Assembly: GCA_021234155.1 (NCBI GenBank)
Contig: JAJEKV010000034.1
Location: 3,649,491-3,713,490, forward strand
From: Isoetes taiwanensis
Taxonomy: Eukaryota; Streptophyta; Lycopodiopsida; Isoetales; Isoetaceae
Reading direction: 5' to 3'
Length of the DNA stretch: 64,000 nt
Below the pieces are notes generated by a model, which was not told the DNA's origin, did no database searches, and saw only the letters and a list, made by a program, of their open reading frames with translations. Shown in pieces: positions 5,831 through 31,330 of this stretch; position 1 is the first letter of the stretch; every line of letters begins with the position of its first letter. The position numbers and the translations under genes were made by a program.

Positions 5831-6279
5831 CGTCAGTCGAAACCCCTTGAGTCTGAGCCCTGGGTAGGATTCCCCTTTGTTCATATTGATGTTGTTGTAT
5901 ATGTGATGATTATGATGTGTTCACCCTTCGAGGTGATTGTATTGATATATTGTTATTATGTGCTCATGTTTATTCACGCTTCCGCAGCTAGGTCGATCCG
6001 AAAGGAGATGGGTGAATGACACATCCACTCTTCCCTTGCTGGCTCATTCCACTGGGAGTGGAGTCAGGTGGATGGCCCTGTCAGTTTGGCTGTCAAGGGG
6101 AATGCTCCGCCTTCTGATACGATGTGTGCATCGTATAAGAAGTAGGGGACATCACAAAATCCCTTGTCACAGACATATCAACATTACATCATTTTGTATT
6201 TAACTTCATAATCCATAGATATTTTAACATTACAGGTAAAAGGCCATCTTGAACCAGTCAATGTGGATCAGAATTGTTG

Positions 6280-9659: not shown

Positions 9660-10232
9660 TAGGGGCTACAATGCCACATCACCTTTGGTGAAAGAAGAAT
9701 AAGATTAGAAAGTAAAATTATAAAATCATTAATTCTAAAATTTTAAATTTTAAAATTATATTATAAATTTTTTTAGTGATCTATTTTTTGGGGCTGCGGC
9801 GCCGTAGCCTCTCAATGTGCTTAAAAAATAAGAACTTTAAAATTAAAATATAAAATAATTATTAATTAAATTTATAAACTTATAAATTTTTAACTGTTTA
9901 TTTATAATGATCTAACTAGGGGCTACGGCACCGCAGCCCTTTTTGGTGAAAGAAAAAAAAAGATTAGAAAGTAAAATTATAAAATTATTAATTCAATTTT
10001 TTAATTTTTAATTTTTAATATAATTTTTTTTAATGATCTATTTTTGGGGCTGCGGCGCCATAACCCCTAAATATACTTAAGAAATAAGAATTTTAAAACT
10101 AAAATATAAATTAATTATTAATTAATTTTAATATAAATTAATTATCAATTAATTTTATAAATTTATAAACGTGTAAATTTTTTAACTTTTTATTTGTAAT
10201 GATCTAACTAGGGGCTGCGGTGCCCCAGCCCC
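9660..10232. repeat. Cluster of GGCGCC-centred near-palindromes in AT-rich DNA
   Basis: A 22-bp near-palindrome (GGGGCTRCGGCGCC then RTAGCCCC) recurs at 9790-9811, 9919-9940, 10046-10067 and, diverged, 10211-10232, with a degraded copy near 9661. Spacing is about 127-165 bp. Between copies the DNA is AT-rich and itself repeated (GATTAGAAAGTAAAATTATA and TAATGATCTA blocks). The same unit recurs at 25.3-25.9 kb. It could be a satellite-like array inside a nonautonomous element. Confidence 0.85.
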
Positions 10233-11258
10233 TTTGGTGAATCGAAGGCAAGCACTGGTAAGGTATGGAGGTGTTGGCACTCAATTCAATTATTCCTCAA
10301 ACGTGACGGACCCAATGCGCCCTTTCACAATGCCAAGCGCGCAACACTGCTCAGGGACTTCATTGAACGATGAAAGAAGTCGTACAATGACCTTCATGGC
10401 GCTGCACATGCTTTAGACCTGCGCAACCATGATATGGACCAATATACAGATAAGGAAGTGTAACGTCCTAGGTATGGAAATTTCTAAGTCTATAGTTAAT
10501 TGGGCTGGACAAAATAATAATAATAAGAGGGGTTTAAATTTGTTCATTAGGAGAATGACTTGTGGCAAGAAAGGGAGTTGGAGAGAACGTTTAAGAAAGG
10601 GTATTATTTTCTTGAGATTAAAAGAAGAGGCGAACGGTAGAAGAGGAGGAAAGAAAGGAGAGAAGGGAAAATAATTTGCGGTAGGCATCTAAGTCTGTTG
10701 ATTTCTGTTTTTAATCTTGGTAATCTGTGTAATGAATTCTAAATATTAAATACTGCTTCTTTGTAAATCATGGAATACCTTCTCTTCAGTTTCTGATTCT
10801 TTGCTGCTTAGCTCGAATTGATTTTCTCGCTATAACCCTGATGGCTACAGATAGGAAGCATATTTTAGACCAGCATTATTTTTTTTTCAACAAAAAGAGG
10901 GGAATCAAAACTATCCTTCTTGCTTTCTTTCTTCTGTAAATGTTGTAAAGGGATTCATAATCTCAGCCTTTGTATCATGCCTTGTATAACAAAATTCGTT
11001 GAACACAGCAACCTGGAGAATCCATTTGGATAGAATAAACAAGGCAAAATATAGATCCACAGACAAAAGAGAATACTTGCTCAATCCTCTATTCCTCTGA
11101 TAGTTACTTTAGATAAGTAATGCTTTGAAAGATTCATGCCTTTGTTGAAGCATCGGCGCTCCACATGCCGCTCCACATGCCATGATTTTTGGCTGCCGCC
11201 GAATTAGGGTGAAACAGTAAAAAAGGGGCTTCGCAGAGATAGATATTATTTCTGGATG

Positions 11259-11260
<2 letters not shown>

Positions 11261-11322
<62 letters not shown>
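11261..11322. repeat. (TA)n microsatellite
   Basis: About 31 perfect AT dinucleotides, followed by an interrupted AT-rich tail. Confidence 0.98.
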
Positions 11323-11324
<2 letters not shown>

Positions 11325-11659
11325 TAATATATATAAAATTACTTGGATGTACCCTCATCATATACCTTGTCTATATACTCAAATGAATCAAGGCCGTTTG
11401 TTTGAAAAGCAGCCAGGTGGCAAATTTGTAGCCTTTGGATATCTATGGGGGCATACATGGGGCATGCTCCACATCTCATTACCGTTGGATCAAGGAAGAG
11501 AGGCAAGATCCCATGCGTTGATTTATTTCTTGAAAATGCAACGAAGGTGCAATTTTAATGCTAATTTATGAGGTGGCAATTTAATGGTCGTCAAAATTAA
11601 TTGCCACCTAAAAGTGGCACCCTATTCTAATCATATCTACATTTTCGTAGCATTTTTCT

Positions 11660-11805
11660 CCTCCTCCCGGTTCGAAGTTCGGTTCCCGGCGGTCTAGCCT
11701 TGCCCCCGTTGTTCCAGGGATGTTCTTGACCAACCTCGGCTGAACTCGCTTCCGCTTTGGGTCGCATTAAAAAATAGCAAAGAAAAAAAAAAAAAAAAAA
11801 AAAGA
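11660..11805 (+). mobile_element. Possible SINE 3' part with poly(A)
   Basis: A B-box-like GGTTCGAAGTTC (11669-11680) is followed by about 100 bp of GC-rich sequence and ends in a long A tract (11781-11804). This layout suits a tRNA-related SINE. No A box was recognised upstream and no target duplication was found, so the call is weak. Confidence 0.35.
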
Positions 11806-12880
11806 AATGATTTTAATTCCGACGCTTATTCTTCCACCACCAGGTGATCGTGGCCGATCCGCCATCTTCGAAAGCTTGCATGCCTTTGCTCAAGCTTCCG
11901 ACCGAGATATTCTCGTGGAGGTGGCAAATCCACTATTGGCCCGTGCAATCGCCTTTTTTTTTTATGAAGATCTTGGCTCCATCAACCAAAGGCCTCAATC
12001 TCAACCGCCGCCTATAGGAGAATCGGTTGATTGCACGTAATGTTAATGTTCTTAGTTGCCCTGCTTTAGGTTGAAATGAACGCCTTCATCTATTTTTATT
12101 CTTATTTCAGATATCAAGGATTTCGCCATGACCTTAGAGTCATGCGGCCACTCGGTCGCTTCATGATTGAAGCCTCGTGATTAACAGATGGTGATCCGAA
12201 AGGATTTTTAGGGCCAAGTTTACTTCCTGGATTCGTGACTATTTACTGAAAGTCCTTGGCCATGTGATTTAGTTCCCAATTTAACGGGAATGCCTATATG
12301 GCGGATTTTTTCATAAGCCCATGAGGTTTCTTTGACGGCCAACGATCAAGAGTCGCATTTGCACGCTTAAGAAATGGGATGGAGCTTTAGTCCCTCAATG
12401 GCGGATTTTTTGTGGAGCCAAATCGGTCAGGCAACTCTTATCCACCATTCTTGATATAGAACTCCGATTCAGTGTCCGTGTTAATATGTTTTTGTTAGCA
12501 AACTTGCTTTCTTTTCTATGCCTAATTTGTGTTTTATGTGCATTGCGGATGCCAAGGAAATAGGTGATTGGAAACACATGTAACAAGTCCGATAGACATA
12601 GCTAACGATTTAAGGTAAAGGCCGCCTTCGTGTTTTGTTCTTGATAGTCTAAATCTTGCTTGGAAATCCATCCGCAAATGGTTATTAGATCTCATTCGGT
12701 GTATAGGAGCAACAATCTTGGAGCCCACTGCACTTGAAAATGTTAGTTTTGCACGAATCAACAAAGCTCTGCCGTAATTTCCTTCTTAATATGCTTGTTA
12801 AAAAGACAAACTTCAATGTCGCTTCTTATATCGAGCTCAAAAGATGATTCTTGGTCCAAGGGGTTTTTTTCTCGGATGAG
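11806..12880. other. Stretch with no recognisable gene
   Basis: Short frames occur, for example 11807-12040 with a proline-rich end, but none resembles a family I know. The composition shifts to frequent CCG/GCC trinucleotides, like 42.9-44.5 kb and 52.8-56.2 kb, which suggests related old repeat DNA. Confidence 0.4.
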
Positions 12881-13102
12881 GCAGCCATTGAGCTAAAGAT
12901 TGCCTCATTGCTTGTGCTCCAAGTGTCGTGCAAAGCATCACCGGTTTAGTGAATTCTCTAAGCTTCTATCTCCATTTAAGAGGATCTTAAGGCAGCCAAT
13001 CGAAGTTAAAGATTGCCTCATCACCTTTGCTCCAAGTTTAGTGCAAAGCATTGCTGGTTTAGTGAATGCTCTAAGCTTCTATCTCCATCATAAGGAGGAT
13101 AT
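12881..13102. repeat. Two-copy tandem duplication, about 111 bp unit
   Basis: Units starting GCAGCCA at 12881 and 12992 align through AAAGATTGCCTCAT and GCTCTAAGCTTCTATCTCCAT-type segments with about 15 percent difference by eye. A 71-codon frame crosses both but has no recognised homology. Confidence 0.8.
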
Positions 13103-14984
13103 TACAAAAGAGTAAACTGCACCTTTATGAAAATATGGCTTAAGGGGCGTATGTTGGAATTAAGCCATATTTGTGCCACATCGCCAAGAGGAAGCCGCTG
13201 CTTAATGCAGCTTTATGTTAATGTTTTGCAGGAATGTATCAAGTCGAAAGCAAGTCCCGGCCATTATCTAGCTCTTTTTCCACATAGATAGGGCCACTTG
13301 AGCTAGAAATCGGTTTCAAACTGTTTTAGAAGATGTCTCAAGTAGGCTTTAATTGCATAATATGAAATATCGTTACTTGAGCTAGAAGTCCGGCAACGGC
13401 CCGATAATACTTCGGTGCCAAAGATGGTAACACCTAAATCAATAATATTTTATGGGGAAAGATAAGAAATGGTTGTAACAATGTTTGATGTTTTGCGTCT
13501 TTCGATGAGCTTTGTATTCATCAAATGAACCCAAGCAAGCAAGTTTGCAAGTGCAAAGAAAGATAAAAGATGTTAGCTAGAGTTCCTTCTTAAATCTCTA
13601 TTGCGGGCAATGAGTTTCTTCCCTTCTAATCCGTGATAATGCATAACACGATTTTGACATCAAATGGTTTTAAGAGGCTTGGTGGATCTCAGTAAATATG
13701 ACAAGGCGGTGTGCATATGTAATCGAGATGATGAGATATCTTTAGCTTACGAAAAAAGTCATGCTATAATATGAATACTCGATATTGCACATTCTATTGC
13801 CACAAGCTTTTCAATGTTCTTTTATTCATGAATCAGGTTTGATGTGTACTTTTGTTGCAGCACTTGCATTCAAGTATTGAGTTCATGTCTTCGGTTTGTT
13901 CTTTTGCACGGGCATTATGTATTCTATTGCCTCGAGCTTTTACTTGAAGTTTCATTCGATTTTCAATTTCCAAATTCCTCTTTATGATCATTCTATTGAT
14001 ACATGCAGCTTTGTATGAAGGGTGTTAGGCAATATAAACAACAACCCTCCTTTAATTTTGCATCTGATATAGCTTATCAATACTATGCGGTACCGTTATA
14101 ATGGCTCTAGTGAATTCCACATGCACTGCGGCCATTCTCAACGTCCCGTGTCTATATTTAGCTTTTAAATTTCATATTTCCTACATTGGTGATATCTTCT
14201 TTTTTGGTTGGGTCAGAATTCCACCTTTGCTTTGGGTTCTTTAAGCATCAATGGAACCAGAAGTATTTATACTTCTCTATTATAAGCATTTGTTGCAGGA
14301 TTTGTTTCTTAGAGAATAAAAAGGTTTATTTTTAGGCAATGACAGTAACAGCAACTAAAACTGAGAACATAAAAAATATGCATTTTCATAATGTTGATAG
14401 GAGCATTGCCTATGGCAAGTTCATCCTTAAAGCCACGTATTTTGAATTGTGCGGAAGAAAAGTTGACCTATATGTGTAGAGCACCTCTGCCTTTAGCATG
14501 TACACCTCTCAAATGGAATACTAGTTTGTTATGAAACAAAAATTGTGTTTTGCATCTCAAATTATTATCGAATGCTCTACAACGATAATATCAATTCTAT
14601 CTTTAAAGCACTTTGGATACCCTTTACATTTACTGCCTAACAAGAGCACTTCTTCAAACAACCCCGTCCTGTATAATGTGTTTAGGGTCCATTAGTAAAC
14701 AATCAATTCAATGATTAAAAATCATTTTGTATAGAGGACGCCATTAGAGAATCAACCTTTGTACATGTTTGAGTTCGATGGCTTATGGATGAGTCCACTA
14801 ATCCTAGACTTTTGAAGTCCCCAACGCGTGTCGACTACCTAAGCAAAGACCAGGTGATAACATCTACAACCATCGCTCTAATGTCACAAGGTTATATTTG
14901 CAACAAAGTACTCTAGTTCACGAATGTTCGTCGTGATTAACCCTGCAAGGTATGTTCTTCTAGTCATCATGTAAGGGATTCTTT

Positions 14985-16150
<1,166 letters not shown>

Positions 16151-16492
16151 AGGACTTTTCGGAACATTCTCGAGACTTTCAAAATATCCTAGAACTTTTC
16201 GGAAGTATTTCCCTAGATTCTCTTACCTTCCCATGGATTCCTACATTCTCAAACATTCTAGAACCTATTAGAACAATTTGGAAACTTTTACGGAAGATTT
16301 TCATAGATTCCCCAGTTATGTTCTAGAATTTTCTAGAATATTTTGGAACTAGAAGATTCTAGAACTTTCTAGAGCCTTCGAACATTCTAGAACTCTTTTT
16401 TGAACTAGTTAGAATGTTATACTCCATTTTATCTTAACTGGATTATTACCCTTAAGTATATTTGAAACATAAATTGTTCATAGAATTAATGC

Positions 16493-16550
16493 TTGGTCTA
16501 GTGGTTAGAATGGGGGGGTGGGGGGTCAATGACCAGGGTTCAAATCCCCT
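16493..16550 (+). repeat. tRNA-like A/B-box segment, left arm
   Basis: TGGTCTAGTGG resembles a pol III A box and GGTTCAAATCC (16537-16547) a B box. The spacing suits a tRNA or SINE head with a G-rich insertion between. No cloverleaf was folded convincingly, so this is a relic rather than a functional tRNA. Confidence 0.6.
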
Positions 16551-17276
16551 ACACAACATAAAAATTTTAAAACCTTTCCTTAAAGGATGAGCATTCAACG
16601 TGGGCCGTAGGATCTTGGACCCGATCAAAGAGGCGAGATGGGTGCCATGTGGCAAAAAATCTAAAGCAACATGAGCCATAGGATCCCGGATCGGCGATCA
16701 AGATCAAGAACAACACGGACTATAGGATCGATTACATATAATTCCCAGGTAGGATGTGTCCCAAAGCAATGTGGTAGTAGGATCTGCCGATTAGAGACAA
16801 ATATCGATCAAATCATACGGGCCCATATATATATATATATATAGTCTATATACAAATCCCCGTTCATATGTTTGTCCTCCCAAAGCCACGCGCTGATCCG
16901 AGATCCCACGGCTCACGGGCTTTGAGGACAAACCCATGGGGAACATGGCTTGGGAGTTTGTGTATAGACTATATGTGCTTCATCCCACTGTCCAAGTTGA
17001 TTTAATCCGCCGTTTTATCCGAGATCCTACGCTCACGCCAAGCTTTTGGAACACATCCTACTCTGCACATGGCTTTGGGAATTATATGTAATCGATCCTA
17101 TGGTCCAGGTTGTTCTGATCTTGATCTTTATCTAGGATCCTAATCGACTCATATTACTTTAGATTTTTTGCCACATGGCACGCGATCTCGCCCTTTGATC
17201 GGGTCCAAGATCCTACGGCCCACGCGTTGAATGCTCATCCTTTAAGGAAAGGCTTTTAAAATTTTTATGTTGTATG

Positions 17277-17330
17277 GGGATTTGAACCCCGGTCATTGAC
17301 CCCACCCCCCATTCTAACCACTAGACCAAG
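17277..17330 (-). repeat. tRNA-like A/B-box segment, right arm
   Basis: Mirror copy of the left-arm segment within the inverted repeat: the A-box-like element is at 17318-17328 and the B-box-like GGTTCAAATCC near 17279-17289, both on the minus strand. It presumably arose with the inverted duplication. Confidence 0.6.
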
Positions 17331-17712
17331 AATTAATTGTATGAATAATTTATGTTTCAAATATACTTAAGGGTAACAATCCAGTTAAGATAAAATATAG
17401 TATAACATTCTAACTAGTTCAAAAGAGTTCTAGAATGTTCTGGAAGGCTCTAGAAAGTTCTAGAATCTTCTAGAAAGTTCCAAAATATTCTAGAAAATTC
17501 TAGAACATAAGAGAATCTGGGGGGAATGCTCGAGAATATAGGATTCCACGGGAAGGTAAGAGAATCTAGGAAAATACTTCCAGAAAGTTCTAGGATATTT
17601 TGAAAGTCTCAGAATATTTTGACCATGAGGTCAGAGTTAACATGCAAAGCATGTTTCATCAGAAAATATCTTTTAGCCTATCAGATAAGCTATGCATGTT
17701 ATACCTGAGTTC

Positions 17713-20684
17713 TCAAAAAGAGATACTATTACTGCGTGCTCCAGCAGATGCATCAGGTATGTTGATATTCTCAATCCCTGTCATATTAGTAGCCATTTTC
17801 ACCAATTTTGGTGGCCTAAGTATGCCTGTAACAGCAGTATTATTATTTTGGTTTCTCTTTTTAGCAGGGGCATATCCGAAGCTGCTATTATCACGAAGAT
17901 GGTCCATCAAGAATTTCCTGGATTTGATAGTCTTTTCAATGATGTCAACAGCCTTAGAATTACCAAACTCGTGTTTGAAATTAGCATTTTCATTTTCAGC
18001 CAATCTGTGAGTCATTCTGAACATGAGATCACGTAACTTAAGATATCCAACATATGAAATGACAACTTTCCTTATCGGATCTGAGGCCAACCATCTGGCC
18101 ATAAATGCAAATCTCATCTGAATTCTCTGTTCAGGCCATATCTTGTCCAAATTATTAAACATGAACCAGACCATATGGTCAAACCAAATGATATTATCAG
18201 GACACTTCTCATCTGTCACCTGATCACAGTTGCATCTGTAAAATGGGCAGTATGTTCTCCAAATACGCTTTAGGTAAAAATCAATCCTTGGCTCATTGGT
18301 TTTGGCCATATGGCCCTTCTGTCCAATGTACAGTTCATTTCCAATTTGGCATTTCTTCTCAAGAAGTGAAATACTGAAAGGTAGCTTAACATTTATTTTC
18401 CTGATATGTTTTGTAAACGAAATGGAATCTCTCTCAGCCTTATTAACTTCTTCAGGACTCAAACGTGCCAGCATGATAAACGATTCTTTACTAATTGGAG
18501 CTGTAATTCCCAAGTTTTTGCTAGCCCACAGCATTTGCTGGAATTGATCCCCATGGATCTCAATATTCCTACTAGACATAATAGGAAAGCTGCCACAATT
18601 GAACAAGTTCAACTCTTTAAGACTGTAGGTTTCGATTTCCTCCATAATTTTATCCTCTGAAGAAGGAACAACATTACCTATGCTAGGCCCAGTAAATTGA
18701 TCCGTACAATCCGCATCATCAATATCAAACAGACAATTGTCCAAGGAAACAGCGGGTTCATCAGTTTTTTCCATGCTAGTATCCACTTTGTTGTTTGGAG
18801 TATAAGTATACTTGAGTGAATTCTGTTTTTCCAGAGCAGTTAAGCCTTTAATGAAAGCAAGTAAATCTTGCAAGTCCTTGCTATCCGCATCCATGTGAGC
18901 ACTTGGAAGTTTCTTATAGGTATCCACAATCAAGTCATGACATCTACCATAATCAGCATCTTTAAAGCTTGAAACTAATCCAAGCATGTTGTTGAATCCA
19001 AGGAACAAAACCACTGACATATCTCCATCACCTAGTGTGCATTCTTTGCAGATAATTAAGTTATGTACCTCCTGTAATTTGATGCAAGCCATGACAGCTT
19101 GGACAGCCTTGTTGGGTGCCAAAATACCTGCTGCAGAATATCCCAGCTTTGATAATTCAGGAAGCCAATTAGGTCTACCAGTATTGGGATTCTGGAGACC
19201 AGTTTGTTGAATGTTAACAGCATGGTTGAAGAGACCAGCATCATTATTTTGAGCAACAGCTTCCTAAATAAAGCATAAAAATCAGTATAAAAGAAAACAT
19301 AAGAGAAGGTATAAGTGAAAGCATAAGAGAACAAACTTAAAACACTAGTCCCAATGGCCTCTATGGTTCACACCAGTAAAACCAGTGATTCAAAATGGGG
19401 AGATATATAAATTGGCCTAGCCAAGACCTCATGCATTAACCAGACATCCAAGGAGTCCTATACTAACTAAATAGGAAACCTGAATTTATTGAACCCTAAA
19501 AAGGGAAACCATAGAGGTCATGGGACTGAAAATCATAAAGAATTAACCATATTAACCATGTCCTAGTCACCAATAATATTAGATTAATCTTAAGCATATA
19601 AAATTGCCAAAAATCTTGCTCAAATATTTAACTGCAGATAATCAGCAAGCTACTAAAGCCACATCAATTAGTTAACTCTTATCAATCCATATTATTCAAT
19701 CCACCATGTGTAGCATAATAAATATTCAAACAGATCCAATTATAGCACAATTCCTCAATCAAGTATTAAGACCATTATAAGAACAAACCTACACAGATTT
19801 AGACCACATAATTATAGGAAAAATAGACCAGATATTTATTGCAAAGAAAATCTTTAAAAATAGTCAAGTTTCATAACAGTAGCAAAATGTATCCATCAAA
19901 TAGAATAACCCTGAACAGATTTAAAGTAATATCTTACCATTCAGATAGTACATTACAGAAACACTCACACATAAATGGTTCATAAGCAAGTAAAAATCGT
20001 TCATAAGCCAGTTACCATCTTCAAACATCATAATAACAACAATGCAGGAGAAGAGAGGTCGGTTACCTGCAGCAAATAGCACTTATTAGCCTAAAGAGGG
20101 TAAGAAATACTAATGCTAGCAGGTAAGCTATGAACTCTCTTGGCATTTCTGCCCTTTACCCACAGAATTTTCATACTGAAAATTAATAATGTAATTTAAA
20201 GCCAACACAAAGCTATCATACATCTTGCATTTAAATAATTTGTGAACAGATCAAAATTGCTGTACCATTGTAACCCAGAATTAAGCTGCAGTAATAATCT
20301 CTTATGAGAATTTAGACCATCTAAGTATAAATAATACAAGCAAACCTGATTTGGTTGAATTTCATTGCTAGAATCCTCTTCATTGTCAGAGTCTGCTACA
20401 ATCTCGACATTAGAATCAGCCACAATGACCACATTACTGCAAGAAGTTTCTGCTATTTTGGAGGCATTCCCACAAGGATTCAAGCTTGGAACAAACTTCA
20501 AGATACCCATGTCACCTTTGGCCCTATTTGGATCTAATCCATGCTGTCTGCACAGATCAATTAACTGTGCTTTACTCGGTTGTGGACTGCTGTGTTCTAT
20601 CCCATGCTTCCTCAGAAATTCAATAAGTTTGGGCCTAGTTTGCCCCTTATTACAAGCGCCCTCTGGTCGGCCACTCTTACTCAT
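17713..20684 (-). CDS. Unknown protein with N-terminal SAP/HeH-like segment (two exons)
   Basis: Exon 1 is 20684-20346 (113 codons) and exon 2 is 19263-17713 (516 codons plus TGA). The intron has a CAG|GTTTGC donor and a TTTATTTAG|GAA acceptor in phase 0, giving about 629 aa with no frame break. Residues 17-55 hold two similar helix-turn halves (RPKLIEFLRKHGI, SKAQLIDLCRQHGL), as in SAP or HeH/LEM-like DNA-binding folds. An acidic stretch (DSDNEEDSSNE) follows. Near residues 452-467 a C-x4-C-x-C-x7-C pattern (YCPFYRCNC...EKC) could bind zinc, and W/F-rich helices follow it. The C-terminus is basic and Asn-rich. I do not recognise the family. The long open exon among many broken frames suggests a functional or recently functional gene. 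It may be a host gene or cargo of a mobile element; foldback repeat 2 abuts its 3' end. An extra small exon in the 1.08-kb intron cannot be excluded. Confidence 0.72.
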
Positions 20685-20715
20685 GCTCAAGCTTTCCGAA
20701 TTGGGAAACTAAGTC

Positions 20716-20723
20716 TATTTATA
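20716..20723 (-). promoter_or_regulatory. Candidate TATA box of the SAP-like gene
   Basis: TATAAATA on the minus strand, 32 bp upstream of the chosen ATG. That spacing would leave almost no 5' UTR, so either the leader is very short or the match is fortuitous. Confidence 0.3.
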
Positions 20724-21018
20724 CTGTCTATTTGCTAAAACCAATTAAAGAGATTTTAAGCCCCTAATCCCGTAAGAAATTACAAGTACGTCCAGATAAA
20801 GCGAAACTTATGAGATATCTACAAGAAATATACCAGAAATACTCCAGAATTATTCAAGAGAAATGAAATAAAATATGCATCAATAGTTACCTGTAACTTT
20901 CGAGTTCAGAAGGCACCAAAATATGATTGCATGCAGCTGTCAACAGCAGTTTCCAGAAGAGTCATCTCCAGTTAGTTACAGATCATTTTGTCACTGCCCA
21001 AGTCACGCTTGTCCGCCA

Positions 21019-21060
21019 ACAGAGCATTAGGGTTCGTCCATCGATTAGGGTTCGTCAATA
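21019..21060 (-). promoter_or_regulatory. Two telo-box-like GAACCCTAAT elements
   Basis: On the minus strand the sequence GACGAACCCTAAT occurs twice within 40 bp, about 340-375 bp upstream of the SAP-like gene's ATG. Plant telo-boxes (AAACCCTAA) occur in promoters of growth-related genes. The core is matched here apart from the first base, so the role is only suggested. Confidence 0.3.
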
Positions 21061-21099
21061 CATTAGAGTAAATAAAATTGTATAATATAATTGTATAAT

Positions 21100-22170
21100 A
21101 TAATTTCTCAACTACCCATAAGCTATTACCACAATCTTTTTTAAGCCCTATATCTTCTATTCTGCCCCCTTGCGCACCCTAAGTATATCCTTAACTTGCA
21201 TTGCATACTTAGGCATTTAATTTTGCCACCATAGTTTTGCCATAATCATCCCATGTCAATTGCCCCTAGCTAATTTGCTGCATTCAAACAATATGTTAGC
21301 ATGCCAATTTCATGATATGTAATTTTCCTGGTTGTCAAAATAACACAAATCAACATATCATCATTATACCCATTTACTTATAGCCAAATACTTACTTCAT
21401 GTTTCTGCAATTGTCCACTAGGTGATCTTTCATTTCCTTATTAATCTTTAGGAGTAAAATAGACCTACACCCGTTATGGGCTCAAATTATTATCAATGCC
21501 CTTAATGAGTTCCCAGAAGCATACCTTTGGTATCTAAATTATCCTTGATCGTATTCCCTTTGGTGAAAACAACACATATATTGAAATCCATCAACAAATT
21601 GTCCCCAAAATTCATTCCATATGGTATCAAATTAACCCTTGCCACAACTTCCATTGCTGCCACAAAAAGGGACCTTAACCAACCAACCTCATATTAAACA
21701 ACCAACATCATATTAGATGCTGTCAATGTTCCTTAGTCTTAAGCAAACCCAAGAGAGTCTTACTACATTATAACCTAAGAAAAAATATGTCCAAAGGCAC
21801 AAGACTATCAAGTGGCAACAAATTACCATTACCAAGGTCAACCATCATAATGTCAGCCATTAGTGTGGGACAAGAACACCTTACAGAAGCAATCATTTAC
21901 AAAGAAATATCATCAAGCCCTAGGAACAACAGCATTTTTATTTAATACATGGGTTAATTTAGAACTAGTTCATTCCAACAGAATGTTGCAATGCTCAGAG
22001 CCATATAAATAAATTGATCCCCTTATCATAGATATGGTACCCTCTACATATTAGTTGCATTTATATGATTAAGTAACATGTCCATGGACAACTAATGACC
22101 ATTACATATGTATTATAGGATGGTACTAGAGATTTAAAGGGAACTAAGGCTAATGACCAGATTAAGATTG
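21100..22170. other. AT-rich stretch with no recognisable gene
   Basis: Short frames only, no recognised domain and no clear repeat boundaries. Confidence 0.4.
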
Positions 22171-22173
22171 TGT

Positions 22174-22270
22174 GTATATATATATATATATCCCTGCCTC
22201 CTACCGGAGGGCAGATAAGGTCCCATATGTTAGCAAAAAGGATTGGAGGATCCCTTTGCTAGCAAAGGGA
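22174..22270. repeat. Short (TA)n followed by a perfect 20-bp palindrome
   Basis: A short TA run (about 22174-22190) precedes 22251-22270, TCCCTTTGCTAGCAAAGGGA, which is a perfect palindrome. GG and CC extend it beyond one mismatched pair. The same bases recur nearby as TTAGCAAAAAGGATT and CCCAAAGGGAC. Confidence 0.8.
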
Positions 22271-22691
22271 CCCTCCTGCCGACTAAGTGATAAAAGTTGT
22301 CCCAAAGGGACAATAGTGCAAACACCGAATATGTTGGGTTCAAATAGAATTGTATCGAAAATTGCTTGCAATACATAGGATGAATAGTTAAGGAGGAAAA
22401 TGAAATTCTATTCCCAATTAATTTGGTTCAAAAATAATTAAGAAAATACCAACAGTATATGCCCATTTTATTCTGGTTCTGAATTAACTGCAGAGTTCTT
22501 ATCCTAGGCCTATAATAATTATTATCAGCCTAGCTGCTACACCACACTTGTAATAATTAGAGTAGTCCTATCATAATTACCATTGCTCATATACTGTGTG
22601 CATTAATTTATGGTGCCTCTCGGCCGGAGTCATACCTTCATTTTCCAATCGATAGCTATTTCACATTCCAAACAATGGCGACTGTGTTTCT

Positions 22692-22803
<112 letters not shown>

Positions 22804-22832
22804 CACACTATAATAATAAATAAAACATGTAA

Positions 22833-22890
22833 TGGTTTAGTGGAAAGAAGGTGGGTTTTCTAGTTGTTAATCTAGGGTTCAAGCCCAATC
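22833..22890 (+). repeat. tRNA-like A/B-box segment (SINE head or tRNA relic)
   Basis: TGGTTTAGTGG (22833-22843) resembles an A box and GGTTCAAGCCC (22876-22886) a B box, at tRNA-like spacing. It resembles the segments in foldback structure 2 but is clearly a different copy. No CCA-ready acceptor stem was recognised. Confidence 0.5.
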
Positions 22891-23694
22891 AAACTCTAAC
22901 ATATTTTTTTTCCATTTTTCGTAGGACCTTTTCTTTATAGTCTTTGTCTTGCTTGCCTTTCTTCGTAGAACTCTAAAACTAGAGACTATGACTAATTAAC
23001 ATAACAATAGAAATAGAAAGTTCTCTTAATATTCAAAAATATAGTCAAGAATCCCAGAAATAGTCCAGTTTCGGTGGGCTGGATATACTATTCTTAACAC
23101 TGATCACATAACCTTATGGGATGTATAAGATTTCCGAAGATGTTTGTAAAAACTGCTATCTAGAATCTTCTCCAAAACACTTGGGCCTGGACGTAAGTCT
23201 TGGTACGCCGAATTGATCACTCGGCTAAAATTCTTGAAATAATTCTACCTGCACAGACTCTATACTGTTATTCTCTAAGTATTAAGTCAAAGGATTATAA
23301 CTGCACATTAAGATGGGTGTGAAATATCTTGAACTAACTGGGTGCCTACTTAGTCATAAGACTAACGTCATGTTTTCTTTTCTCTCTGTTTGTTCTCTAG
23401 CTCGTCAAGATTTGCCAAGGAGAACATGAACATTAGAATTTACTTTATGAAGTGAAAAACTGATGTATTTTTGTTTGAACAAGATGTTGACTAGAATATT
23501 AACTCTATCTCGAGCACATGAATATTTATACTTGAGCTCGTTATTCGGATTGAAGATTTTTCTTATTTTTTTATTGTTGTTGTGAATTTATAATAGTGAT
23601 AAGATTTAAACTCTAGCTCAAATTAGAAATAAGACTTAGCCATAAAAGGGTAACTGCTCGAATTTAACGTTTTTCAAGCCGGAAATTTTTGGGA

Positions 23695-23935
23695 ACGTTA
23701 CAGGAAGTTATGGTTTTGTTGAAGAAAGTTGCAAAACTGTACTATCCTAACAGCTCGGACTACAAGCTTTTTATTGCCGAGTTAACCGAGTACCAAAACT
23801 TGAGTGGAAGGTGGGCAGACGAAGAGCTTCATGACGCGTTGGAGAGTCATAAGAAGGAGCCCAATATGGAATCCTATGCATGGTGGCAAACCCATGGGCA
23901 AGTTATTAATACCTTACACAAAAAAAAAAAAAAAA
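23695..23935 (+). pseudogene. hAT-type transposase fragment
   Basis: The frame encodes ...VAKLYYPNSSDYKLFIAEL, a stretch with SGRWADEELHDALE, then an AWWQTHG segment. The spacing of an aromatic helix, a polar linker and P/A-x-x-WW-x-x-HG is what precedes the dimerisation helices of hAT transposases (Ac/hobo family). After HG the frame runs into an A tract (about 23920-23935), so the C-terminal dimerisation helices are missing. The upstream DDE core is absent as well, so only this piece is left. Confidence 0.55.
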
Positions 23936-24089
23936 CAAGACAAGTGACCTGGTATCAATGTAAAACAACTTTCTATATTCAGAATGCAACCATATTCAGC
24001 TTTGAAGTCCATGCCAGAGCATATCAGAGCAGAGCATACCAGAGCAGAAAAGGCTCCTTGTTGTCGATAGTTCAACATAGAGCTAAATA

Positions 24090-25310
24090 GCCTGTTATAG
24101 TAGAAAGAAAGATTGCTCTAATAAAAACTAAAGGCAACAAACAAGCCATCCGTAAGTGGAGCCGAAATGCGAGGCGGATAGAGATCTCTTCGGTTGAACG
24201 GTGTAAAATTAGTCACCACAATTTCTGAGCGTTTCCCAGTTCCAGAATGGTGGCAGATGCTTCTTCCTTACATGCTTACCCTAATATCAAGAATGGCTAA
24301 TAAGAAATGAATTGTAAGAAACTGACAGGCAAGGCCTCACCTTCTGAGATGCAGAAGGAGCTTTCTCCCTGTTTGACTTCGCAGCCACAAGAATGCACGA
24401 AAAGAAAATACGAATATATGTTCAATGCATTTCGATGAGCATAGACTTGTTGTTGTGTAAAAGCGGCCTCATCCGTGACTTCATGGGTAACGATCTTCCT
24501 ACGATGCTATGCTTGGAATAAGCACGTAAAAAGTTTGAGCAATGTGACTTTCAATAAGATTGCGCTATATTGGAGGAAACAACGGTAAAACCCCCGTAGA
24601 ATAGCTCCCACTTGCGATTAAGCCTCGCAACAAAAGTTCGTGGCAACAAAAGCTCCTCTCATTTAAGTTATTCCAAAAAAAAAAAAAAAAAAGAGGAAGA
24701 AACGGGGATTAAACCCAAGACTCGACAAGACTTCCAAGACAAAATCGTGGCTAAGTCCATATTCTTGGATCGAAGCAAGAGAATTGAAGGAAGAGATAGA
24801 AACCGTAAGACGCGAACCGAACTTCGGTGCTAAAACAAGAAAAAAGGAAAACGGGTAGGAATTAAAAATGGAGCGTGGCTATGGCAGAGCAGGGAATGTA
24901 GGCGAGAGATTATATCGCCAGAATAGGGCTTCGGCTATAGCCATAGCCAGCGGACATCGCAAAGAAGGGAAACTAAAGTGGAAGGAAGGGGAGGCTTTTT
25001 CACCAGAGAGATCGATCTCTGTGAATTTTTCCAGCCCCACAAATAGGTCGTGGACCTTTTCCATCTCCGCGGCCAGCAGAGCTCGAAAGGAGGCTTGAAA
25101 AAAAGAAAGGAGGCTTGAAAAAAAAAAGGAAGTTACTCCATGAGTCCGTGACCCTTTCTATCTCCGTGCCCATTTTTGGCAGATTTTCTAATTTCCCTGG
25201 CCTTAGATTTGCAAAAGCCAAGATCTAATGGTGCAAAATAAGGCACATCAGATTTTGATGACATGGAAATTACACGTGGATAGGCTAGAATTGCAAGAAA
25301 GGCTGTAGGC
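24090..25310. other. Noncoding stretch with A-rich tracts
   Basis: Contains an 18-base A tract near 24675 and a small tandem pair (AAAGGAGGCTTGAAAAA twice near 25087-25130). Short frames at 24868-25098 have no recognised homology. Confidence 0.4.
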
Positions 25311-25319
25311 CCGGTAGGG

Positions 25320-25905
25320 CTGGTGTGCTAAAAAAAAAAAAAAAAGATTAGAAAGTAAAATTATAAAATTATTAATTCAATTTTTGAATTTTGAATTTTT
25401 AATATAATTTTTTTTAATGACCTATTATTGGGGCTGCGGCGCCATAGCCCCTAAATATGCTAGAATAATAAGATTAGAAAGTAAAATTATAAATTAAAAT
25501 ATAAAGAATTATTAATTAAATTTATAAATTTATAGACTTATAAATTTCTAACTTCTTATTTATAATGATCTAACTAGGGGCTCCTCCTGGTGAAAAAGAA
25601 AAATAAGATTAGAAAGTAAAATTATAAAATTATTAATTCAAATTTTGAATTTTTATAATATAATTTTTTTCTAATGATCAATTTTTGGGGCTGCGGCGCC
25701 ATAGCCCCTAAATATGCTTGAAAAATAAGATAAAAAGGTAAAATTATAAAATTATTAATTCATTTTTTTTTTAATTTTAAACTTATAATATAATTTTTTT
25801 AATTATCTATTTTTGGGGCTGCGGCGCCATAGTCCCTAAATTACTTGAAAAATAAGAATTTCAAAATTAAAATATAAAGTAATTATTAATTAAATTTATA
25901 AATGC
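25320..25905. repeat. Second cluster of GGCGCC-centred near-palindromes
   Basis: Copies at 25430-25451, 25687-25708 and 25815-25836, plus a half-deleted one at 25577, in the same AT-rich context (GATTAGAAAGTAAAATTATA, TAATGATCTA-like) as the cluster at 9.66-10.23 kb and in the same orientation. Spacing is about 110-147 bp. Confidence 0.85.
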
Positions 25906-26524
25906 TTTATTATGGATATACTTGTTATTTTTTAATTTTGTGCTCATTCAACTGATCGTATTTTCTCTTGCCAATAGTCACTACAGATGTGCTACATTTG
26001 TGGATATTAACATCTTGATATGGTGTCAACCCGTACCGATCCAAATTATAAGCAAGCAGTTTGGACACCACCAAAAAGAAGAAAGAGAATAAAAAAAATT
26101 ACCTTGTGAGTTGTCAGAAAAGATGCGTGAGATGGAAGCCAGTATCGAGAGAAATGTAGAAGAGACACAAGAGACAAGCATGACTGGCAAATCTATTGCT
26201 GATCCTAGCGCATTAGAGGCATCTGCATAAACACAGACTCCGTTACCAATTTCACATATTTCAAAAAAAAAACAAGGACAAGAAAAAGATAAGATAAGAT
26301 GATTTTTTACGTCCACTGGAACCCAACGGGTTATGGGACGGCACATGCACCATCTAAAACCTGGGGACTAGGCCCCGTCACCAAATACAAGAACCAAATA
26401 TTAAAAGACTACCAAGAAGAAGATAATGCTAATGCTAGAGGTAATTTTGTGCTTCTAAAATTATCTAGACATAGCCTGTCCAAGGATTGGACAGCCATTG
26501 ATCTAGAATAATTGCTGCGCCTCC

Positions 26525-26930
26525 CCAGCATTAATCGCCCCATTTCTTTTGCGGTGGGCTGCCCTCACCTTGCGTAGCTCCCTCTTTACTTTACACACAA
26601 CCGAAGAGGGAGAGGTCCTCCCAGTCTTGAGAAACTAGTCCATCCGAGATGGTTGCCATCTTGAGAAGAACATGTGTTTACTAAGAGTGTCTTGAAACGA
26701 ACCAAAAGATGGCGAGGACGATCAGGTCTTTCCGCTCCCACCCTAGTAGCGGAGACAACTCCACCAACCTTCACATGCATGACATCAGAGAAAAAATGCA
26801 AAGCCGCATCCACATCAGAATGGGCATCATCTTCTGCCTCTGCAACCCCTATAATACGTAAGTTCAGGCTCCTGGTAACAGAAGATACCGAGGCAGCCGC
26901 TCCTTTCGCTAGCTCGACATCATGAACTCG
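26525..26930 (-). pseudogene. LINE ORF1-like fragment
   Basis: The minus-strand frame 26925-26700 encodes NLRIIGVAEAEDDAHSDVDA, a helix, VKVGGVVSATRVGA, then RPRHLLVRFKTL. This is the layout of the RRM-like nucleic-acid-binding part of plant LINE ORF1/gag proteins (N-L-R-I-x-G, a D-rich helix, A-x-R-V-G, R-P-R-x-[LV]-V-x-F). The continuation (26700-26525) is in a shifted frame and ends with a basic KVRAAHRKRNGAIN-like tail. It is an isolated relic with no reverse transcriptase beside it on this strand. Confidence 0.55.
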
Positions 26931-27149
26931 GGTCCCCTTGGGATTGTGGAGATGATCAGATTCCCACATCAACATGTTCCCTTTCCAATGTCTGGACTCT
27001 GTGGCTGTAATTCTGTATCTAGTGTCTGTACTGAGGCATCACATGTGCCCACATACTGGGCTTTAGGGTCTGGAATAAAGGCATATATTAACTGTAATAA
27101 GTGTGTCCATCTCTCAATAGACACGATCATAGATGTGGCCGTCATTCCT

Positions 27150-30100
27150 CCCTCAGAATGAATAAGTCGTACCTGGTCACGAAGTAGATGCACTTGATGA
27201 TCAGACCCTAGATGTGGTCGATGCTGCATTTACTGATGAAATTATGTCTAATTTATTGCAGCAGGTAAGAATTAGCAGGGCTACTCTGCCACCTCCTATA
27301 CCTTTGTGTAGGATATTGAAGCATGAGGCAGTTAGAACTGTTGCATCACATACGTTCAACATGAAAGAAACTTTTAGAAAGGATGGATACATTATGGAAA
27401 AGGGGTCTTTCATTCTATCAATATTAATTCCACGTCAGGAAAGCATACCAGTGGATGATGGCATTCTAGCAAGTTGGGAATCCAATCTGGAGACAAGTAG
27501 ATGATGCTTTTGAGGAAAGTGTTCTACGATCTGAAGATTGGAAAGACCTATCAGGTAAAATGTTTATGTGTTGCAGTGGAACGCAGACATGCATGTTTCT
27601 GTTCGTGCAACTTTCATTGGCATAGATCACTCTCAAGAAACACCTCTTCTAGCTGCCTGAATCAAATCAATGAGTAAGTTTTTCGTTTAATATACTTTGG
27701 CTAATTTGTGTAGTGTTTTTTGCCATGCTAATTTTGTAATTCTATAGGTTGAATGAGATGGGTGTAGTTCATACCACCCTGAAAGACACATTGTTCAGCG
27801 TGCATCGAGTTGCAAATTCAAATCCAGAGAAATATGATGAACGCCTAGGTATTGAATTTTTAAAGTCCTTGAGGACCAAGGAGAGTATTTCGACCTTGAA
27901 AGGCAGTGCAACTGAAGTATGGTATTCATTGACGCGACTCGAATATGCTAAGATATTATACTAGGTATTTCCTTTCTTTGGAGTCTTTCAAGTTTTTAAT
28001 TTACTACACACTTGGATTCCTACTGACTATAAATAATTCATATAGCAAAACATAAACAGAGGTATTGAATTGGAAGTTAAGAGTTATCCATCACTCCAGG
28101 AAAGCCCTGAAGATATTGAAAACATTTGTAAAAGGAAAGTGTATGAAAGATGGCAACAGAAATTAAGAAAGTATTTGGCTATTATAAATCCAACCTTGGG
28201 GCTAAGTTGATTAATTGTTGTGACAACTATGGAAACACAATCTAGACACATGAAAATAAGAGTTGAAAAACTGTTAGAAATGGTGAAGGCCAAAGTCCCA
28301 AACAATGTTAGAGACAGATGGATGCATTGGCGGACATCAGGAGCTGCCTTGACGAGTACGTACATGATTCCTAATAATGACAAGCAATTCAGGGAATGGG
28401 TGAAAAAGGAACTTGGCTTGAGCATGTGCTAAGAGGAGTTTGGGCTTTTATGAGAGCACAAAAATAGACTTCGACTTGACCTTGGATATGCCAAGAGGGG
28501 AAGACATAAAAGGTTGGTTCCAGAATTTCAAGTTAGATTATCGAAAGGAAATGTTTAGTACTATTGAGAAGCATATGAGTTCAACCTTGCCCTTTACCGA
28601 GGCCTATGACTTGGAGAAATGTGCTATGCGAGTTTGTTTCAGGTACTGCTAATTTCAATATTTTTACATGTTTTTTTGTCTAGAAGGTATAACTCTATTT
28701 TTTTATTCAGATATTACAAGCACATTGTCAGTAAAGGCTATGCAGTTTCTCTACCAAGGGAGATGACTTCTTGGAATAAAAAAGAAGTCCCAAAAATGTT
28801 TTCTAAGTACAATCTAGATAGAAAAGGGGGTTTATCTAGCTATGAATATGCTAACTGCCCTTGGTGGATTGATTTTCCAGATGGAAAAATATCCTAAAGA
28901 AGAGGAGGAAGAATGGAGAAACCAACAGGTTGGTAACAAGTCTAGAAGGGAAAGCTTGAATGCCAACCATGAATCTTTTGGACAACAGTCACCATTATCA
29001 AAATCTTCTTCAATTAAAAATGTATGAGCTGCAAAAAGGGAACGAAAATTGGTATTGCAGGATGAACATGAGGACATTCTTACAAGTGCACAATCCGAAG
29101 GTCAGCATTCATACAAGCATTATATGATTTGGAAATGGAAGTAGGAGATGTTCTCTTTACTTAAATCAAGAAAGGAATGCCAATTATTCAACAACATGAG
29201 AGAGTTTGCAAAGAACCGTTGCAGGTTGTTCAATAAAATAAAATTGCAGAGAAATGGTAAGTCCAGGAAATGGGGTGCAGATTTGGTTGTAATTGATTTA
29301 CCAACCAATGGCCCTTGCCAGGAATGATTGTGCTGGAATGGAACTCCTGTAATGAAGATTTGGTTGATGCATGTTTGACTATCGGGAACTTGTGCCTCAA
29401 TGACTCAAGTTGGTTGGTTATTATATGTGCTGATGATAAGTCTATGATGGTGAGGTCTTTGGCTATTAAAAATAATCTTGTTTATCTCTCGCAAATACAC
29501 TTTGACCCATGATAAGCCCTTTGGTTATAAAAAAGATAGATTGGGGGTTTTTGAGGCAAATAACCTGGACATTTATATCATGGCACGAGATGGTAAGGCC
29601 CCTGCTTTTCATTTCACAAAAGGGTTTATTGTGGGTAAGATGGAGCATAACAGGACTATATTGAAGCAAAAGATTTATGATTGCACAAGTCGCGGATTGC
29701 TGACAGGTGATAATTGTACCATTGTGAACGTTCAGTCATGATATTTGAATTTTTATTGGATATGTTGTGTCCAAAGGAAGGCATTACGGTTGACCTTCTT
29801 GCATGGAACATGATCCTTAACAGAGGCATGTGCTAGGTTTGGTTCTCACTGCTTTGGTATTGAGAAGGAGGACACATTTGTTGATTTTTTTAAGAACAAA
29901 AGATTATCTAGAATCCTCGTGCAGAGTGAAAATATAGAAGGAAGTACAGGCGGAACCGATTAAAAATTCTAGTGGACTCATCTCTACCTTGGGAGCTGAA
30001 TTGGAAGAGCCGGAATAGTAAGGTTGATAGTGTCTATCTAACTTTCATTATATTGGTTTTTTGCCTCCATCGCCAACACTCACATAATTTTGTTTTCCTT

Positions 30101-30235
30101 GTAGTTCATTGCCAATCTACATGGAGAGAGTGGCTATAGCAATGGCCTTAGCATCTTCCCCAGAAATGAAGGAATATGGCAACAGGAAGACTTCTATTTA
30201 TGTGGATGATGAGTGTGTTGAAGATTACACAATAT
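27150..30235 (+). pseudogene. Methyltransferase-like repeat protein, copy A (broken, multi-exon)
   Basis: A chain of frames runs through this block. 27170-27560 is an N-terminal part (with RTVASHTFNMKETFRKDGYI). 27749-27960 follows an intron ending CTATAG|GTTGAATGAG. 28070-28430 is Lys-rich. 28437-28641 joins 28710-28896 across a 68-bp intron (CAG|GTACTG...ATTCAG|ATAT) to read CFRYYKHIVSKGY. Then comes 29200-29900 with DLVVIDLPTNGP, a helix-strand run with WLVIICADDK, GITVDLLAWNMI and ARFGSHCFGIEKEDTF. A DPPY-like motif preceding a D-x-F-x-G-x-G-like segment and then R-H-C-x-G-I-E-K-D is the order of beta-class amino-methyltransferases; both catalytic motifs deviate (DLPT, DLLAWN). Frames shift several times, so it is broken. 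A 5'-truncated second copy lies at 62.27 kb. It is probably a transposon-borne gene. Confidence 0.5.
28642..28709 (+). other. 68-bp intron of methyltransferase-like copy A
   Basis: GTACTG at the 5' end and TTTTTATTCAG at the 3' end. Removing it keeps one reading frame (F-R-Y-Y-K). The retained intron argues that copy A was not made by reverse transcription of a spliced mRNA. Confidence 0.6.
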
Positions 30236-30654
30236 ACAACTTTACTTTTCTTTATTAGAAATGCATTGGACATAAACTATGCATCCTTCTATTACATATC
30301 CACTTCCGAATTTCTTATTAGTAATTTCGAATTCTGTTTCATTACATCTTCGTTAAATTTGTTCTTCATTAATTCCTCTTTTTTAGTTTCAAAAGTGTTA
30401 TTCCTTTTGCAAGCGTCATGGTTATTTAGATTTACTTTGTTAACAATTGTATTATGCTAAATTACATCCTCTGTACATTAATTTTTCATTATGACAAAGT
30501 GTTTCAACTTTTGTGAGTGGCTTCATTCTTTAAATTTTATAATGTAATACAAGAACTATAAATACTACACAATACCTAATTCGAGTGCACCATGCCATCA
30601 ATATTAAGTAACTTATTTTTTAACAAAAACCCTAAAAAACCATGAAAAAAAAAC

Positions 30655-31330
30655 CTAGCTTTAAAAATCCCCACATAGAACAATGGCTGGGGTACTCCAA
30701 TCCATCCGCCCCTCCTGTGCACACTTTGCAGATAGGCTGGAACATGCTATGGCATGATTGTAGCCTTTTGGAGCGCAATCTCAAGGAATCACCCTATGAG
30801 ACTACTCCGGGTTACATCTCCCCAGTCCGATGAGGCAGGTCAGGGAGACGTCCCCTCCCCAGGCATGACGGATCCTTGGGTGTGCTAGAGAACATGTGCC
30901 ACATCAGTGACCCCCCCGCATCCGTACCCGACTTACTCCCCTAAATCTAAAGGCCTGCTCACCGCGCTCGTTCGAGCTCAGGGCATCCATATAGGCACGT
31001 CTCCTACGACCCAGGGAGTGTCAGACCCATACCGGGCCCACATTCAATGACCGACTATAAGCCTAGCACACTATAGGAGTCATGTAGCCCAACTAGGCAA
31101 GACCCCACCCTCGTTTCACCATCATACCCGTTGTCTGGTGCTGAATCACAACATAGCATCCACAGCCAAGTGGGCTCTTGTGCACAGGCCGCAAACATTA
31201 GGATTTAAGGGATTCTGGCTAGGGGCATCTCTACTTCTGCATAGCCTTGAGGTCTCTACCCCCCCTAATCCGCAGACACACATGAGAAACAGAAAGAGGG
31301 AACACAATCATAATCAAAGTATCCATCACC
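30655..31330 (-). repeat. Dispersed repeat family, copy 2 (inverted)
   Basis: The reverse complement aligns with 5240-5830 over several blocks, including CAAAGTGTGCACAGGAGGGG and GCGGCCTGTGCACAAGA. It lies just after the methyltransferase-like block and carries no recognised coding frame. Copies in opposite orientation 25 kb apart indicate a mobile repeat. Confidence 0.65.

Follow-up and report, generated by a model that had tools for sequence, protein, structure and literature searches.

The window analysed here is a 64,000-nucleotide stretch of the lycophyte Isoetes taiwanensis (contig JAJEKV010000034.1; C1039:3649491-3713490 of the genome searched, which holds 1,658,258,908 bases on 1,110 contigs), and its positions 27150-30235 carry a multi-exon block that an original prediction, made from the sequence alone, described as a repeat-borne gene for a methyltransferase-like protein. 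The block belongs, as the second of two genes, to a DNA transposon whose ends are defined and flanked by 9-bp target duplications; a transposase-like gene lies on the opposite strand, on the other side of the methyltransferase-like gene, and palindromic sites centred on GGCGCC are arrayed between the two. The window copy of the element is dead; the reading frame of its methyltransferase-like gene is interrupted by shifts and stops. Loci are given L numbers and contigs C numbers; the element on C1090 is close to the window copy. The layout in the window is as follows:

6161-8539, minus strand: transposase-like remnant, divergent from the methyltransferase-like gene (similarity to the C1090 element; tblastn match at 6358-8522)
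9764-10156, plus strand: first part of the tandem repeat between both genes (Tandem Repeats Finder period 129, 3.1 copies; GGCGCC sites at 9798 and 10054; matches the C1090 array)
10234-25331, no strand: foreign sequence of about 15 kb splitting the element (gap in the colinear match to C1090; no runs of N)
25332-26288, plus strand: element resumes with the remainder of the tandem repeat (GGCGCC sites at 25438, 25695 and 25823)
26289-27181, no strand: about 0.9 kb without counterpart in the C1090, C231 and C1100 elements (colinear match stops at 26287/26288 and restarts at 27182 in all three)
27259-27657, plus strand: N-terminal exon, damaged (tblastn with the L021 N-terminal exon, E 2.8e-52; alignment A2; ParB-like motif by eye only)
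28046-28646, plus strand: middle exon (frame changes between 28420 and 28431; two frames match L003, at 88% and 94% identity)
28706-30015, plus strand: methyltransferase-like exon, frame broken (tblastn matches in frames 2, 3 and 1)
29295-29309, plus strand: motif IV, DLPTN (D-x-P-T invariant in 24 of 24 aligned copies)
29792-29809, plus strand: damaged S-adenosylmethionine (SAM)-binding loop, DLLAWN (DLLAGTGS at the same place in L002)
30640-30672, plus strand: right terminus of the element, ...TTTAAAAATCCCC (seven other places have matches stopping at 30672)
62274-64000, plus strand: second copy, 5'-truncated and running beyond the window (L004; 92.3% identity to 28429-30172)

The three peptides on which the prediction was built are present on the plus strand in the order given there: DLVVIDLPTNGP, with its DLPTN codons at 29295-29309; GITVDLLAWNMI, with DLLAWN about 166 codons past DLPTN; and ARFGSHCFGIEKEDTF, which is read in a frame other than that of the preceding peptides. 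Over 6291-8539 the transposase-like remnant shares 92.7% identity with the transposase part of the C1090 element, and over 6161-6292 it shares 92.4% with a further part; the left end of the element was not found in the window.

Ends of the element and its divergent transposase

Two copies, A (C1044) and B (C974), match along about 8.2 kb, the main pieces at 94-98%, and their ends are flanked by the 9-bp duplications TTGCAACAT and ATTTGTTAT; in the C1090 element GAAGTGTAG stands at both sides. The target duplication is matched at 9/9 positions in A, B and C1090, and at 8/9 in C231 by eye. The termini are short imperfect inverted sequences, GAGTGTAATTTTTT / GGGAAATTTTTT in A and B and GGGTGTAAATTTTT / GGGGATTTTCAAAG in C1090. 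The right end at 30672 is shared by the window and seven other places, which by eye have five distinct flanks between them; one flank is common to L002, L006 and L010 and another to L014 and L015. The gene is positioned inside the element ends. The prediction had offered the alternatives of a domesticated or a transposon-carried protein and had proposed looking for element ends; the fixed right end, the target duplications in A, B and C1090 and the linked transposase bear out the second alternative, and nothing supports domestication.

The transposase-like gene is open in C1090, with frames of 588 and 382 residues, and contains a C-x-C...C-x-H stretch recognized by eye. A search with the C1090 transposase returned at least 79 matches (74 of 1,299 candidates scored), which form 71 loci and are 40-100% identical to the query; a gene of the methyltransferase-like family lies within 12 kb in 35 of these loci, head to head in all 35, where the estimated chance of a neighbouring family gene is about 0.003 per locus. 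This count uses all listed anchors and takes the midpoint of the transposase to decide the side; a smaller set of anchors with a stricter rule for the side gives 33 of 71, 32 of them divergent, C1054 being scored as 'other' for its overlapping coordinates. The anchors, used also for the 44 site arrays described below, were 106 of the 121 protein-search rows (extra pieces of listed loci were dropped), all 132 N-terminal-search rows and the 100 listed of 118 D-[LF]-P-T pattern sites. The remaining 36 transposase loci have no listed family gene nearby, on partial lists; they include the transposase of the window, which the nested insertion separates from its gene. The element is perhaps Mutator-like: target duplications of 8-11 bp, and some members without terminal inverted repeats, are described for Mutator-like elements (MULEs) in the available part of a survey (PMC6446971), the main text of which, in that part, mentions neither methyltransferase nor ParB.

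A DNA search of the genome gave 17 matches, the two of the window counted in; a protein search with L003, the most open close relative, gave at least 121 (115 of 531 candidates scored), and one with an N-terminal frame at least 132 (131 of 731 scored). Many of the matched frames are open. The block is therefore more than a chance similarity, given the 17 DNA and 121 protein matches. Its presence twice in 64 kb, as the prediction had it, is confirmed by the copies at 28429-30172 and 62274-64000; L004 comprises the second copy and 1.3 kb beyond the window, and its likeness to the first copy extends as far as 31481, which is 809 bp outside the element, so a segmental duplication appears likelier than a second jump.

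Further sequences surround or interrupt the element. An inverted match of 71.6% joins 5590-5770 to 30677-30866, the latter starting just outside the right end, and the element may thus sit in or beside another repeat. Frames resembling a long interspersed nuclear element (LINE) reverse transcriptase were recognized by eye at L025:2-1351 (plus strand) and in the joined C974 stretch at 3357-4994 (minus strand), beside or overlapping element edges. The 15-kb insertion in the window holds a 516-aa open frame at 17716-19263 (minus strand), for which a Pfam scan gave no match, and a frame at 20199-20708 (minus strand) with a weak SAP match (0.0099) below the cut-off; the insertion is perhaps another mobile element.

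The methyltransferase-like domain and its relatives

The predicted structure matches a methyltransferase fold across the whole domain, and structural alignments to PDB entries 6pbd, 1eg2, 1boo and 8s9m have 12-15% identity. In L048 motif IV stands at 201-204 and DLLTGTGS follows near 368-375, which places motif IV before motif I; the beta-class motif order and the methyltransferase-like fold of the prediction are thereby upheld. Motif IV of beta-class DNA amino-methyltransferases has the form (D/N/S)PP(Y/F/W), the aromatic residue of which stacks on the flipped base. In alignment A1, which holds 24 of 25 listed frames (L019 was left out because it is the same locus as L002), motif IV reads D-[LF]-P-T-[NH]-[DE] in every row. 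Because D-[LF]-P-T replaces the standard form in all 24, the family is a beta-class relative by fold and not a member with the standard active site. The aspartate and the second proline of motif IV are retained across the aligned members, and the glycine loop GTGS is found in 11 of the 12 rows reaching that column, the exception being L052; relatives read DLLAGTGS where the window copy has DLLAWN. The prediction had taken both positions as catalytic residues altered in this copy: judged by the alignment, DLLAWN is indeed decay of the window copy, since GTGS occupies its place in relatives, whereas DLPT is a family trait and not damage, since all aligned relatives share it. A consensus of the relatives accordingly restores the glycine loop and does not restore DPPY. 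Decayed copies are more variable at motif IV (for example INLPTND in L013).

A degenerate DNA pattern that encodes D-[LF]-P-T-N preceded by two hydrophobic residues and followed by D or E occurs at 118 sites in the genome, as against 7 for the reversed pattern; the listed matches of this pattern employ differing synonymous codons, which points to selection on the residues themselves. The ratio of nonsynonymous to synonymous substitution rates (dN/dS) was taken from listed pairs of at least 100 codons with dS below 0.9. For the methyltransferase exon it is at most 0.50 in 30 of 33 pairs, which look to be under purifying selection; the others give 0.60, 0.72 and 1.85, a single synonymous change underlying the highest value. 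For the N-terminal exon it is below 0.50 in seven of eight pairs, the remaining pair giving 2.07, again with one synonymous change.

The prediction had also proposed a search with the Pfam N6_N4_Mtase profile, and the outcome differs between damaged and intact copies: neither the broken frames of the window nor the near-open frames of the close copies L003, L007, L009 and L014 gave a methyltransferase match in Pfam, and intact relatives exceed the cut-off in L038 (1.7e-8) and L050 (6.9e-8) and just exceed it in L024 and L029. Phage DNA methyltransferase families also match intact relatives. A profile of A1 found no PDB sequence at E 1; among IMG/VR and GTDB genomes 28 and 271 pattern matches were obtained, none of which was confirmed as a relative of A1.

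The N-terminal part contains a stretch, PLCRI...GNHR, that resembles ParB by eye only (alignment A2). A PDB profile search with this part stayed at chance level, 14 members of A2 matched no ParB family in Pfam, and Pfam ParB_N had 0 matches in the genome; phage matches were absent for the N-terminal exons of this family and of the second family described below, and a comparison of the two N-terminal profiles aligned 7 columns with a score of 13.2, as against a shuffled maximum of 22.6 in 50 shuffles. Among individual frames, the N-terminal frame of L048 matched no phage family and that of L050 matched one of unknown function (phrog_9592, 9.6e-4), mostly outside the conserved part. The AlphaFold model of the N-terminal exon has a mean predicted local distance difference test score (pLDDT) of only 38.9.

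The same genome holds a second family with a DLPY-type motif. A PF01555 search gave at least 150 matches, all over the cut-off, among 1,442 candidates, and an A-D-L-P-Y-G-F-like pattern occurs at 445 sites and at none when reversed. Ten loci were inspected:

L056-L065, for example L058:705-2055: second-family loci with the DLPYGF-type motif and DAFSGSGTT

In frames of at least 80 residues, D-[LI]-P-Y-G-F is present in six of the ten and DAFSGSGTT in seven. The N-terminal exon of this family has three weak hits, to the ParB models TIGR03764 (0.0072) and phrog_723 (0.019) and to DUF6551 (0.016). Six loci (L057, L060, L061, L063, L064 and L065) share a common right end, in which a short hairpin (about ACGGGAGTTGTGCAACACTCCCGT) is followed by TTTGCAAC or AATGCAAC, and they finish in TGCAAC after the hairpin, unlike the focal elements; judging from these differing right ends, the second family probably resides in another element type. 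The spread of an active methyltransferase by a mobile element, which the prediction had thought of interest, is doubtful for the focal family; it is the second family that retains the DLPY-type motif.

GGCGCC sites between the two genes

A palindromic site centred on GGCGCC is present in 3-6 copies between both genes in 10 of 11 elements examined, and its flanks are lineage-specific. Allowing up to one mismatch where needed, there are three sites in A and in B, five each in C1090, C1100 and the window, six in C231, six each in L048 and L049, and three each in L053 and L050; L034 has one, with fewer than 700 bases upstream covered, and a seventh upstream one-mismatch match in L048 (1324) was excluded. 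The intergenic stretch holds tandem repeats, with a period of 137 in C1090, C231, C1100 and A (the window array is related to these), 70 in L048 and 64 in L049; the repeat finder gave no such site-bearing array in B, L050 and L053. The repeat units vary in sequence by lineage, with the palindromic core in most units: GCGGCGCCGC in A and B, GCGGCGCCAT inside the arms AGGGGCT...AGCCCCT in the focal lineage, ACGGC[G/A]CCGT in L048, L049 and L053, and TCGGCGCCGA in L050. In the arrays of L048, L049 and L053, GGCGCC and GGCACC versions occur next to each other, as is expected if CpG is lost via deamination of methylated cytosine.

The concentration of sites between the genes is pronounced. Of 27 exact GGCGCC sites in eight loci, 24 are intergenic, within 12.2 of 93.8 kb (bounds of the intergenic stretches set by the analyst), and whole-locus shuffles have means of 0.2-0.7 sites with maxima of 2-4. 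Symmetry extends beyond the core and is strong in the focal lineage, at 8-11 of 12 arm pairs, where the background has at least 7 symmetric arm pairs at 863 of 44,260 positions (about 2%). The flanks differ according to the lineage of the element: at one position, three of the four lineages show changes on the two sides that match each other. Neither the copies of one array nor the arrays of one lineage count as independent. The exact 26-base focal site occurs at 14 genomic sites on six contigs and never when reversed; five of these contigs carry family matches, and on the sixth, C514, the two sites lie between an N-terminal match and a transposase match. The L048 version occurs at 84 sites in 44 arrays, with none reversed: a family gene lies downstream on the same strand in 18 of the 44 and a transposase on the other side in 4, 19 having either, as against a mean of 0.04, never above 1, for the shifted control. 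In none of the 44 is a family gene present only in the wrong orientation.

Candidate functions and comparison with known systems

The likeliest reading of these comparisons is that the protein is a SAM-binding regulator which has lost methyl transfer. It would still bind SAM, with methyl transfer lost or changed (replacement of the aromatic Tyr of motif IV by Thr would be expected to cripple it); it would bind the iterated GGCGCC-centred sites of its own element; and it may control the divergent promoters or their silencing, by analogy with VANC for VANDAL elements. That the second gene of the transposon combines SAM binding without normal methyl transfer, recognition of its own sites and control of the promoters or of silencing is given about an even chance; this estimate and those for the other explanations are not mutually exclusive. 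A broader proposal is more tentative: a catalytically silent SAM-binding recognition protein and the GGCGCC sites would form a self-recognition system that keeps the element expressed, with sites and protein changing together in each lineage and with an origin independent of VANC.

Several results weigh against a SAM-binding regulator of this kind. The loci used for dN/dS were picked for open frames, which biases the ratios downward; the N6_N4_Mtase match is below the cut-off in L048, L049, L051, L053 and L036, and in every case spans only the C-terminal part of the profile. Pfam scans of the 588-, 382- and 107-aa frames of C1090 and of the A and B frames gave no relevant transposase match, and ParB as a demonstrated N-terminal domain was dropped, as the searches returned nothing significant. 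Exact GGCGCC is absent between the genes in L049 and L053 (in L053 it is found nowhere), where only one-mismatch sites stand; arm-pair symmetry is weaker outside the focal lineage, at 5-9 in A and B and 6-7 in L048 and L050; and 25 of the 44 L048-type arrays have no listed neighbour, on partial lists.

The sites themselves could serve a different protein. Transposases often bind internal repeats, and since the arrays are situated between divergent genes they may be bound by the transposase or by host factors acting on the divergent promoters, the methyltransferase-like protein acting elsewhere; this is a realistic, though minority, explanation, against which stand the lineage-varying flanks, with their matched two-sided changes at one position in three of four lineages, and the location of all 14 exact focal sites on contigs with family members. 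These two observations argue for a binder encoded by the element without indicating which of its proteins it is. Somewhat less probable is an active, atypical amino-methyltransferase, in which D-[LF]-P-T-N would be an altered motif IV and adenine or cytosine would be methylated at or near the GGCGCC sites of the element: the retained aspartate, second proline and glycine loop, the signs of purifying selection and the DLPY-type family in the same genome favour it, whereas the residue expected to stack on the flipped base is threonine in 24 of 24 rows. Modification of its own element has also been proposed by the authors who described a comparable Ectocarpus protein (PMC12477816, in the portion available).

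METTL14 pairs with METTL3 as a non-catalytic partner, and on this model the focal protein would pair with an active enzyme of the DLPY family and supply the choice of target; the presence in one genome of two diverged families, of which only one has the aromatic residue, would fit such a pairing, which is nevertheless improbable, the two families sitting in elements with different right ends. Least probable is a host gene family that transposons have captured or that was simply duplicated in their vicinity; the several introns of the gene and its very high copy number would agree with it, and against it speak the position of the gene inside the element ends and its divergent pairing, at many loci, with a single kind of transposase. 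The SAM-binding regulator is preferred to each of these. Beyond the locus, one plant genome holds more than 100 motif sites of a conserved-looking version without the standard catalytic motif and more than 400 of the DLPY-type version; methyltransferase domain hits in such genomes should be treated with caution, as they may be transposon proteins.

Among beta-class DNA methyltransferases, CcrM, RsrI, PvuII and the bdelloid N4-cytosine (N4C) enzyme (PDB 6pbd, 1eg2, 1boo and 8s9m) share with the focal protein the whole-domain fold and the order of motif IV then motif I; they differ in having a DPPY/SPPY-type motif IV in place of D-[LF]-P-T. Phage proteins that fuse ParB to N6_N4_Mtase have been described (PMC12704722, as far as its available text goes); the methyltransferase domain is of the same type and the plan would be comparable if the N-terminus were ParB-like, but the N-terminal part of the focal protein has no significant ParB match. 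A match in BFVD, A0A6J5MMM5, is named ParB/Sulfiredoxin. Two phage methyltransferases examined as possible ParB fusions proved to be plain enzymes.

In the literature consulted the closest precedent is Sola1-1_Ec32 of Ectocarpus, which, in the available text of PMC12477816, encodes opposite its transposase a protein that joins a ParB-like domain to a predicted N4C or N6-adenine (N6A) methyltransferase domain; its authors propose that this accessory protein binds and marks its own element, and they cite green and red algal cases. In both systems a transposon-borne methyltransferase-domain protein is encoded on the strand opposite the transposase; Sola1-1_Ec32 is a Sola element of a brown alga, whereas the element described here is from a vascular plant and has 9-bp duplications, D-[LF]-P-T, site arrays and a ParB resemblance by eye only. 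None of the matches listed from open-licence PubMed Central dealt with a protein of this kind from a lycophyte or a Mutator-like element. Algal transposons with ParB-methyltransferase proteins are published precedent and the GGCGCC sites between the genes are what is new; self-modification has been proposed for the algal proteins (PMC12477816), and the plant family allows an effect on the own element to be tested directly.

VANDAL elements and their VANC anti-silencing proteins in Arabidopsis offer the nearest parallel for the sites. According to the available part of PMC5735166, VANDAL target motifs are short and tandemly repeated, both in introns and upstream of the transposase, and vary among subfamilies; the element described here is likewise a DNA transposon with an accessory gene and lineage-varying motifs in noncoding tandem repeats. 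The VANC proteins presented in PMC5735166 carry DUF1985/DUF287 regions and their function was tested by experiment; they are characterized by sequence-specific binding to tandem target motifs with loss of DNA methylation there, of which the focal system shows the tandem site arrays. The focal protein has a predicted methyltransferase fold; no Pfam match to DUF1985 or DUF287 was found in the frames scanned, with one small exon outside the scan and the presence of both models in the library unchecked. The candidate target sites within the element itself suggest a possible second origin of VANC-like regulation.
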